Below, in pieces: positions 6,003-8,425 of a stretch of 64,000 nucleotides of DNA (its first letter is position 1; each line of letters starts with the position of its first letter). The DNA is taken from the NCBI GenBank assembly GCA_005778225.1, contig SXPC01000293.1, forward strand, positions 1-64,000, written 5' to 3'. This DNA comes from Planctomyces sp. Its GTDB lineage: Bacteria; Planctomycetota; Planctomycetia; Planctomycetales; Planctomycetaceae. The position numbers were made by a program, and so were the translations under genes. The notes under the pieces are model-generated. The model had not been told where the DNA came from, did no database searches, and saw only the letters and a list, made by a program, of their open reading frames with translations.

Positions 6003-7460
6003 ATGCTGCGCTCGCTTGTTTGCCTTATGTTCGTTTTCAGTTCAGGTTTTCTGGCGGCCAACGATCTGCCGAGACTGAAGGTCAGTGAAAACGGTCGCTA
6101 CTTGCAGTACGAAGATAGCAATCCCTTCTTTTATCTGGGCGACACCTCTTGGGAGCTTTTTCATCGACTCAATCGCGAAGAAGTCGATCGCTATCTGGAA
6201 GATCGAGCCGCCAAGGGGTTCAATGTGATCCAAGCCGTCGCGCTCGCGGAAATTAACGGGCTCAATGATCCCAATGCCTACGGCCACAAGCCTCTAATCA
6301 ACCAGGACCCGACCAAGCCGGACGTCAAAGATGGCCCGGAGAATGATTACTGGGACCACGTCGATTACTGCGTGAAGAAAGCCAATTCCCTCGGCCTCTA
6401 TATCGGTTTCCTGCCGACCTGGGGCGATAAGTGGAATCTTAAATGGGCAGCGAATTCAAAGTTCAATCCAGAGATCTTCACGCCCGCCAATGCAGAGGTG
6501 TATGGGAAATGGATTGGGAGTCGTTACAAGGATGCGGGAGTGATCTGGATTCTGGGAGGTGACCGACCTGTCGAGAACGACACGCATCGCGCAATCAATA
6601 CGGCAACGGCCAAGGGAATTCGAGCAGTGGATGGCAAAGCCCATCTGATGACCTTTCACCCGAGCGGAAGTTCGTCATCCACTGATCATGTCAAAGAGGC
6701 AGACTGGCTCGATTTCCACATGATGCAATCCGGCCACGCCCGTCCGGACAAACCAAACTACGAACGCATCGCCAATGATATCCGCATCGCTCCGAACAAA
6801 CCGATTCTGGACGGAGAGCCATGCTACGAAGATCACCCGTTGCGTGGCCGCGACCATTGGGAACGTCGACTCGAGCCAGGGTTCACGTTGAAATGGTTCG
6901 ACGAATTCGACGTCCGCGTGGCAGGCTACCGCGGAGTCCTCGCCGGTGCTTGCGGCCATACCTATGGCAATCACAACATCTGGCAGATGTGGGCACCTCC
7001 CAGAGAACCAGTCACTGTTGCCAGAACGCCATGGACCGATGCACTCAAACACCCCGGCGCAACGCAGATGGGGTACCTGAAGGAATTTTTCCTCGCCCGA
7101 CCGTACTGGAAGATGACGCGGGATGACTCGCTGATCATCAAGCCCTCAGACAATGTCGAAGAACGTCCCCTCGCCGCGATCAGTCAGGATGGTGATTTTC
7201 TGGTCGCTTACCTGCCTGTCGGCGGCACGCTGAACATCGCGACCGGAAAGCTGAAGGCAGAAAAACTCCGTGGCTGGTGGTTCAATCCGCGGCAGAATAC
7301 AGCGCAGTTGATTGGAACATTCGGAAAGAAGGAAACTACTGAGTTTGTTGCGATGAGCCAAGGGCGAAACAACGATTGGGTCTTGGTCGTAGAAGATGCT
7401 TTAAAACAGTATCCGCGGCTCGGGACGACCTACAACCAGTATGAGCCGAAAATGAAGTAA
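6003..7460 (+). CDS. DUF4038 domain glycoside hydrolase-like protein with putative collagen-binding domain
   Basis: N-terminal signal peptide; LKVSENGRYLQYEDSNPFFYLGDTSWELFHRLNREEVDRYLEDRAAKGFNVIQAV and WILGGDRP motifs typical of the DUF4038 family. Confidence 0.85.
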   Translation: MLRSLVCLMFVFSSGFLAANDLPRLKVSENGRYLQYEDSNPFFYLGDTSWELFHRLNREEVDRYLEDRAAKGFNVIQAVALAEINGLNDPNAYGHKPLINQDPTKPDVKDGPENDYWDHVDYCVKKANSLGLYIGFLPTWGDKWNLKWAANSKFNPEIFTPANAEVYGKWIGSRYKDAGVIWILGGDRPVENDTHRAINTATAKGIRAVDGKAHLMTFHPSGSSSSTDHVKEADWLDFHMMQSGHARPDKPNYERIANDIRIAPNKPILDGEPCYEDHPLRGRDHWERRLEPGFTLKWFDEFDVRVAGYRGVLAGACGHTYGNHNIWQMWAPPREPVTVARTPWTDALKHPGATQMGYLKEFFLARPYWKMTRDDSLIIKPSDNVEERPLAAISQDGDFLVAYLPVGGTLNIATGKLKAEKLRGWWFNPRQNTAQLIGTFGKKETTEFVAMSQGRNNDWVLVVEDALKQYPRLGTTYNQYEPKMK

Positions 7461-7471
7461 TGGATGATTTA

Positions 7472-7874
7472 GGAAGGATGAAGGATGAGTCAGAGGAAAT
7501 CAGGAGCGAGAACGCTTGGTGTTTCTGACAATGGTGACAAGGATGGCAATCAGTTCGTCAACCTCTTGTCGGATTTCAACAAGCTTTGAGTGCTCAACAA
7601 TTTTGGAGTCAGCGAGAAGCTCGAGCCAGTAGCCAGTTTCGTCGAGCTCCTGCAAACCAACCTCAAGTTTGCTGATGAATTCTGCCGTCGAACGTGCTCG
7701 AAAGCCTTCGCGGTAGTGAGCTCCGACAGAAGTTCCACTTCGAAGAAGCTGTTTACCAATGACTTGAGCCGTGGTTGAATTCGGGAGAGCTGCATAAAGA
7801 CGAATGATTCGTAATGCAAAATTCTTCGTCCTCACTATGAGCTCTTGTCCCTCTGACTCATCCTTCATCCTTCC
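7472..7874. repeat. 403-bp unit bounded by 25-bp perfect inverted repeats enclosing the four-helix-bundle gene
   Basis: GGAAGGATGAAGGATGAGTCAGAGG at 7472..7496 and its exact reverse complement CCTCTGACTCATCCTTCATCCTTCC at 7850..7874. Confidence 0.85.
7500..7868 (-). CDS. Four helix bundle protein (S23/TIGR02436-like)
   Basis: RTKNFALRIIRLYAALPNSTTAQVIGKQLLRSGTSVGAHYREGFRARSTAEFISKLEVGLQELDETGYWLELL is the classic four-helix-bundle (23S IVS-type) protein sequence. Confidence 0.85.
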   Translation of the reverse strand: MKDESEGQELIVRTKNFALRIIRLYAALPNSTTAQVIGKQLLRSGTSVGAHYREGFRARSTAEFISKLEVGLQELDETGYWLELLADSKIVEHSKLVEIRQEVDELIAILVTIVRNTKRSRS

Positions 7875-8425
7875 GCCTTCATCCTTTCCTTGTAAAACTC
7901 CAATGCTCTGCGGTTTGAGTTGAACGCCATCTTCTTCAGCGTCGCTGGAGTCAGCTTGCGGTACTTGTAGCTTGCGACTTCACCTGCATCCAGCTGCAGG
8001 TCATCCAGCGACTCGATGTGGCAGACGAAGAACGTGTCGCAGACCGGGAGTTCGTTGCCCTTGTAGACATACACGTTGGGGAAAGAGCAGAGATACTCCG
8101 GCTTGACCGCGGTGAGATTGAGTTCCTCCAGCGTCTCTCGAAGAACAGCTTCCTCAAGTTTCTCACCGACGTCGACAAAGCCCCCTGGCAGGCCGTACAG
8201 ACCTTTGCCCGGGTCCTTCGCCCGTTCGAGCAGCAGGACCCGTCCTTCGTCGTCAGCAACGATCGCAGCGACCGCTGTCGTGGGGCCAAAGAAAAACGTG
8301 AAGTCGCAGCGGTGGCATTGAAACGGATTCACGCCCGTTTTCTTTGCTTTGGCTTTGCAGACGGGGCAATAAACAAAGGCTGATGCGATGGGTTGTGACA
8401 TGGCTGGGCCGAAATCTGCTCTCAA
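7865..8425 (-). CDS. NUDIX hydrolase with N-terminal zinc ribbon
   Basis: YCPVCKAKAKKTGVNPFQCHRCDF zinc ribbon, then GLPGGFVDVGEKLEEAVLRETLEELNL Nudix box; true start may be downstream at MSQPIASAF. Confidence 0.9.
   Translation of the reverse strand: MRADFGPAMSQPIASAFVYCPVCKAKAKKTGVNPFQCHRCDFTFFFGPTTAVAAIVADDEGRVLLLERAKDPGKGLYGLPGGFVDVGEKLEEAVLRETLEELNLTAVKPEYLCSFPNVYVYKGNELPVCDTFFVCHIESLDDLQLDAGEVASYKYRKLTPATLKKMAFNSNRRALEFYKERMKAEG

Follow-up and report, generated by a model that had tools for sequence, protein, structure and literature searches.

A 23S rRNA intervening-sequence-like gene between inverted heptamer arrays in Planctomyces sp.: a probable member of a widespread family of small mobile cassettes

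A gene of the four-helix-bundle family known from 23S rRNA intervening sequences (IVSs) lies between inverted arrays of a seven-base repeat within a 64,000-nucleotide stretch of Planctomyces sp. DNA (the window). This unit probably belongs to a widespread mobile-cassette family whose members, around 400–600 bp long, enclose an Avd/S23-like gene between inverted heptamer arrays, and we conclude that the cassette is related to 23S rRNA IVSs. The architecture, its 7-bp periodicity, the tracking of protein subfamily by heptamer, presence/absence polymorphism, and gene-less copies are all seen directly. Recurrence over phyla, together with the subfamily-tracking repeat and the empty sites, points to a small mobile element that is widespread and has largely been overlooked.

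In the window, the 23S-rRNA-IVP-like gene (hereafter, IVP gene; 7500–7868, minus strand) encodes 122 amino acids and is the sole open reading frame (ORF) of the cassette, matching TIGR02436 at 94.4 bits (cut-off 24) and PF05635 at 73.8 bits (cut-off 33.8) in profile searches. As an earlier note on this DNA had described, perfect 25-bp inverted repeats bracket the gene: the left arm, GGAAGGATGAAGGATGAGTCAGAGG, lies at 7472–7496 on the plus strand, downstream of the IVP gene, and its exact reverse complement forms the right arm at 7850–7874 (minus strand). Allowing up to three mismatches, this arm sequence is matched at these two sites only in the 64 kb, with a chance expectation of none (0 in 100 shuffles). 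The right arm holds the IVP start codon (7868–7866) and the codons for MKDESEG, and the IVP stop codon starts 4 bp inside the left arm, both as previously noted. The inverted repeat extends imperfectly to 42 nt (7455–7496 and 7850–7891, 86% complementary).

The outer, imperfect part of the left arm (7455–7471, plus strand) overlaps the stop codon (7458–7460) of a convergent gene that the earlier note called DUF4038 and that here gives Pfam matches to PF13204 (Apiosidase-like) and PF12904. The right arm likewise has an outer part, AAGGAAAGGATGAAGGC (7875–7891, minus strand), which codes for a portion of the C terminus of a NUDIX protein (MKAEG-stop), the last codons of this gene being arm sequence. 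The NUDIX gene itself (PF00293, 68 bits; 7865–8401, minus strand, with an ORF start possibly at 8425) is a neighbour outside the cassette, upstream of it and in the same direction; relatives of its product are at most 56% identical. Read directly from the sequence, the NUDIX stop TGA and the IVP start ATG overlap as ATGA (7865–7868, minus strand), and because of this overlap the IVP gene appears to be arranged for translational coupling to the NUDIX gene. The cassette thus has an Apiosidase-like gene on one side and a NUDIX gene on the other, and lies outside any 23S rRNA gene. Neither a reverse transcriptase (RT) nor template/variable repeats were found beside the IVP gene, no direct repeats were found in 7000–8400, and the single RT match of the genome is on another contig.

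An AlphaFold2 model of the window protein comprises four helices (pLDDT 94.4). Its best Foldseek match is 2rld of the S23 family, followed by 2gsc (also S23) and by Avd (4dwl), and the ribonucleoprotein structure 8ub7 of a diversity-generating retroelement (DGR) is matched as well. Similarity to Avd corresponds to a TM score of about 0.7–0.8 at a sequence identity of about 16%. Together with the profile scores, these matches bear out the relationship to 23S IVS proteins and Avd proposed in the earlier note. The 2rld structure contains five chains, and the Xanthomonas protein has been published as a homopentameric ring (as stated in PMC4990558). Residues invariant in the window subfamily include R13, Q40, S44, E54, R57, E74, E77, and E102, with conserved acidic residues at E54, E74, E77, and E102; no recognised catalytic domain was found in the protein.

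In seven-base steps, the right arm reads AAGGATG-AAGGCGG-AAGGATG-AAGGATG-AGTCAGAG, and the window arms are short tandem arrays of the heptamer GGATGAA. The minimal cassette suggested earlier stands as a discrete unit of gene plus inverted ends; the ends, however, are subfamily-specific heptamer arrays and not a fixed transposon terminus.

The same arrangement recurs widely. The IVP gene was found in 53 of 79 related genomes, and for each gene, arms were sought in an alignment of the 250 bp upstream against the reverse-complemented 250 bp downstream, a score of at least 16 being counted. Inverted arms flank 66 of 96 related planctomycete genes, against seven of 96 with arms in direct orientation, and the rates at control positions are 1.4% (displaced positions in the same loci) and 0.3% (random window positions); about a third of units fall under this single alignment threshold and are without clear arms. 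Identity at a lag of seven bases is 0.60 in the arms against a background of 0.26, with a best lag of 7 or 14 in 63 of 77 units. Every locus carries a heptamer of its own (examples being GGATTCA, TAGTGGG, GTCCTTG, and TCGTCAT), shared in inverted orientation by both sides. Beyond this phylum, inverted arms with 7-bp periodicity accompany 48 of 79 genes from a sample of more than ten phyla, among them Chloroflexota, Acidobacteriota, Cyanobacteriota, Bacteroidota, Pseudomonadota, and Nitrospirota. Arms are likewise present around 26 of the 30 genes nearest to the window protein (window gene included), five of the first six plasmid genes taken, and seven of eight viral-contig genes, six of these eight sharing one neighbourhood. 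The IVP gene had eight matches in IMG/VR, and none was found on phages in INPHARED.

The heptamer follows the protein. Similarity of heptamers and identity of proteins are correlated across 108 units (Mantel r = 0.51; the maximum of 2000 permutations was 0.23), a value that includes common descent, which is not entirely removable from it as protein and arms are co-inherited. Proteins of the NIAEGCGR type are accompanied by TCAGCNN arrays in many phyla, those of the ADSIGANIAEG type by TNGTCAN-like arrays, and those of the window subfamily (SGTSVGA.YREA.RAR) by NGATGAA or NGCGGAR arrays, relatives of the window protein also having arms of the GGATGAA type. In the TCAGCNN class, the motif is retained in 43 of 52 units at a mean third-codon-position identity between genes of only 0.34, and thus neutral sequence in this class is near-randomised. 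The NN bases of these arrays vary, and matching between arms (36, versus 33.9 with shuffled order) shows no excess. Because the motif is kept despite randomised third positions, and because the NN bases are unmatched between arms, selection seems to act on a motif that is read out—most simply through recognition by the protein—and not on stem pairing; base-pairing of the stem as the conserved property is rejected on the same ground.

Precise presence and absence can be followed for six such units, all of this architecture, on plasmids of cyanobacteria, with empty counterparts in relatives at up to 97% identity, no empty allele having been found for the window's own locus; for comparable cassettes at equivalent sites, this supports the mobility that the earlier note had supposed. 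A Trichormus plasmid (L144, also L239) carries a cassette at a place that is empty in 97%-identical plasmids (L228, L229, and L240). The other filled sites, with their empty counterparts, are L145/L241 (empty in L231, L232, and L242), L143/L238 (L233, L234, and L236), L393 at a cas10/cmr3 junction (pAQ6, L396), L394 (L398), and L395 (L399/L400). The empty sites carry no heptamer array. Two related plasmids of a single Nostoc strain (L143 and L237) differ both in their cassette and in which junction of one operon it occupies. Five-base repeats resembling target-site duplications, which the earlier note had suggested looking for, accompany two insertions (GTAAT and TTCTA), but there is no general excess over the 108 units, and universal target-site duplication is accordingly unsupported. 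In 63 of 85 units, no more than 25 nt separate the left edge from the stop codon of the incoming ORF, compared with 45 of 425 random positions that were not confined to intergenic DNA. Among 20 loci picked for strongly conserved flanks, no Rfam rRNA match was found, the flanks being protein operons. Within a genome, DNA identity between cassettes reaches about 75% at most; movement is therefore slow or mainly horizontal, and recent within-genome bursts are rejected.

The arms also occur without the gene. At the L238 site, a gene-less unit (around 170 bp between arm ends) with arms of the same heptamer splits the IVP gene, and L397 carries a gene-less inverted pair where L394 holds a full cassette; gene-less inverted pairs are found in three genomes. 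One of these pairs, 130 bp end to end, is on contig C44 of the window's own genome (G000), a 5.1-Mb draft that is 87% complete and contains one TIGR02436 gene. Including this pair, about ten further arm copies in this genome lack the gene, mostly single and intergenic, and hence the idea that every arm copy brackets a four-helix-bundle ORF does not hold. Linkage between gene and arms is one-way, since most genes have arms, yet arms also occur gene-less in this genome. The gene-less copies are consistent with action in trans, which lends some weight to the trans-mobilisation envisaged earlier; as a whole, the earlier cassette interpretation is partly supported.

Solo heptamer arrays are present in G000 and in two other genomes, G012 and G001. 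They are rich in two of six gene-bearing genomes sampled, with none or one per 100 kb in the other four, and six genomes without the IVP gene contained no strict arrays; an association of solo arrays with the gene is suggestive only. Those of G012 and G001 resemble the cassette heptamers of their own genome about as well as those of the best other genome. The longest solo array seen consists of around 200 bp of CGAGAAA/GAGAAGC heptamers (G012, L255, 13386–13605). In the window's genome, direct solo arms surround a 108-residue ORF, Rieske-type by eye (C47, L001; arms at 1509 and 2197), and a 387-residue ORF that by eye is of Ada/alkyltransferase type (C265, L005; arms at 475 and 1713).

RAYT proteins are Y1 tyrosine transposases, and none lies between the window arms, where the PF05635 gene is the only gene. 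Like the REP/REPIN–RAYT arrangement (REPINs: PMC3116915), the present units combine a single-copy gene flanked by inverted short repeats with dispersed gene-less copies of those repeats; they differ from it in encoding a four-helix bundle, for which no catalytic site is known, and in having a heptamer array as the repeat. The fold is that of Avd from DGRs (4dwl and 8ub7), but unlike DGR Avd the window gene has no adjacent RT or template/variable repeats. The closest parallels are with 23S rRNA IVSs: that of Coxiella burnetii, with its S23p ORF, is 428 nt long, possesses complementary ends forming a stem, carries GACAGAT heptamers just upstream of the ORF, and is regarded as selfish (PMC4990558). 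The window unit shares the protein family, a similar size, complementary ends, and heptamers near the ORF start, whereas 23S IVSs lie within 23S rRNA and are cut by RNase III and the present units lie between protein genes. Tracking of the heptamer by the protein is absent from the papers found.

Seven-base tandem arrays between genes, which the present arms resemble, are known from several bacteria. Heptameric tandem repeats and minitransposons are reportedly mentioned in a study from 2008 on small dispersed repeats of Nostoc. Intergenic heptameric arrays have been described in Xanthomonas (GGGAATC) and Nostoc (GGGGA(C/T)T) (PMC4692102) and in Beggiatoaceae (TAACTGA; PMC4679880); Xanthomonas genomes contain 70–75 convergent inverted pairs each, and no general link of the Xanthomonas and Nostoc heptamers to mobile elements was seen (PMC4692102). 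No mention of the IVP gene family beside the arrays was found in either paper, and no paper joining the two was found in literature outside subscription journals.

A likely sequence of events would begin with expression of the IVP protein through read-through from the gene behind which the cassette lands. The protein would then bind its cognate heptamer arrays via the tandem 7-nt sites, on DNA or on the cassette RNA, perhaps with one heptamer per subunit of the pentamer, and this binding would mark out the ends of the cassette, which would then be copied or transferred elsewhere, as a rule to a position in an operon directly after a stop codon. Inverted pairs without the gene, and solo arrays, would either have been moved in trans or been left behind. 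Rather more tentatively, and at somewhat less than even confidence, the units may constitute a separate class of mobile element: a four-helix-bundle pentamer, and not a known transposase or RT, would define the element through subfamily-specific 7-nt arrays, with gene-bearing and gene-less copies entering gene junctions over many phyla, and 23S rRNA IVSs would be the special case inserted in rRNA.

Other readings account for part of this evidence. The strong hairpin, with the start codon in its stem, would also suit a stationary host gene whose arms serve in its autoregulation at the RNA or DNA level, through the hairpin or through self-repression via the heptamers, and the match between protein and motif fits a self-binding regulator equally; presence/absence polymorphism at six sites, sister plasmids that differ in the junctions occupied, copies that lack the gene, and the dispersal of arms on their own nevertheless make a stationary element quite improbable. 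A less stationary alternative is RNA-based (retro) mobility, in which the cassette RNA hairpin would be bound by the Avd-like protein and copied by an RT in trans, as Avd participates in DGR retrohoming. The Avd-like fold (with 8ub7 among its matches), a transcript that folds far better than shuffled sequences (z = −7.1), the excision of 23S IVSs as RNA by RNase III (PMC4990558), and insertion into transcribed operons are all compatible with this route. It is nonetheless thought unlikely: five of six related genomes without a PF00078 RT keep the IVP gene (G011, G052, G054, G055, and G078), leaving a resident RT unsupported as a requirement, the variable array positions are unmatched between arms, and no poly-A or other retro-signature was observed.

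Terminal inverted repeats, precise empty sites, gene-less copies, and possible 4–5-bp duplications at two sites would be expected of a MITE-like non-autonomous transposon that had captured the IVP gene and depended for its movement on a DDE or tyrosine transposase unrelated to it. Such elements would share a common terminus, which is missing here: the arms differ completely within one genome, following the protein, and therefore a single transposase could not read the cassettes. The same gene family moreover recurs in units of many phyla, and a captured passenger is judged very doubtful; a simple MITE or insertion sequence, with terminal inverted repeats constant across the family, is rejected since the arms are not constant. 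Least probable by far is that the arrays represent an independent simple-repeat family, shaped by slippage and recombination, into which the gene tends to insert. Solo arrays in G000, G012, and G001 agree with this; the flanking arrays, however, are inverted and not direct (66 versus 7 of 96), the empty sites have no array, and strict arrays are missing from the six gene-free genomes, although four of six gene-bearing genomes also have none or one per 100 kb.

If the cassette reading is correct, a common and unexplained family (annotated as four helix bundle protein, S23, or 23S rRNA IVP) acquires both a testable role and a molecular setting, and is connected with the long-noted, unexplained heptamer repeats of bacteria. 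Matched pairs of protein and heptamer would be ready test cases for the reading of nucleic acid by a four-helix ring. Apparent gene associations of the family may, in addition, often be cassettes that have landed in operons, as at L393 (cas10/cmr3), L030 (ATP synthase gamma-like), and L351 (type II secretion/pilus-type).

The first of these cassettes (L393, 1771–2127) separates cas10 from cmr3 in a type III-B CRISPR operon and is absent from pAQ6 of PCC 7002 (L396). As 23S rRNA IVP is listed among the domain abbreviations in a figure of CRISPR-linked genes (PMC10910872), the CRISPR association of this family may reflect a landed cassette. Elsewhere, contigs C1 of G039 and C1 of G041 carry group-II-intron-like RT genes, up to ten near-identical copies in one planctomycete genome. 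In four genera (L030, L034, L040, and L083), cassettes with different heptamers adjoin the same conserved gene, either through repeated insertion at one spot or through one old insertion whose arms have changed together; that of L030 follows an ORF reading as ATP synthase gamma and precedes the next gene of the operon. The L351 cassette (1444–1914) is situated between genes that by eye encode a GspE/PilB-like ATPase and a PilC/GspF-like protein, and L348 and L352 share its flanks.
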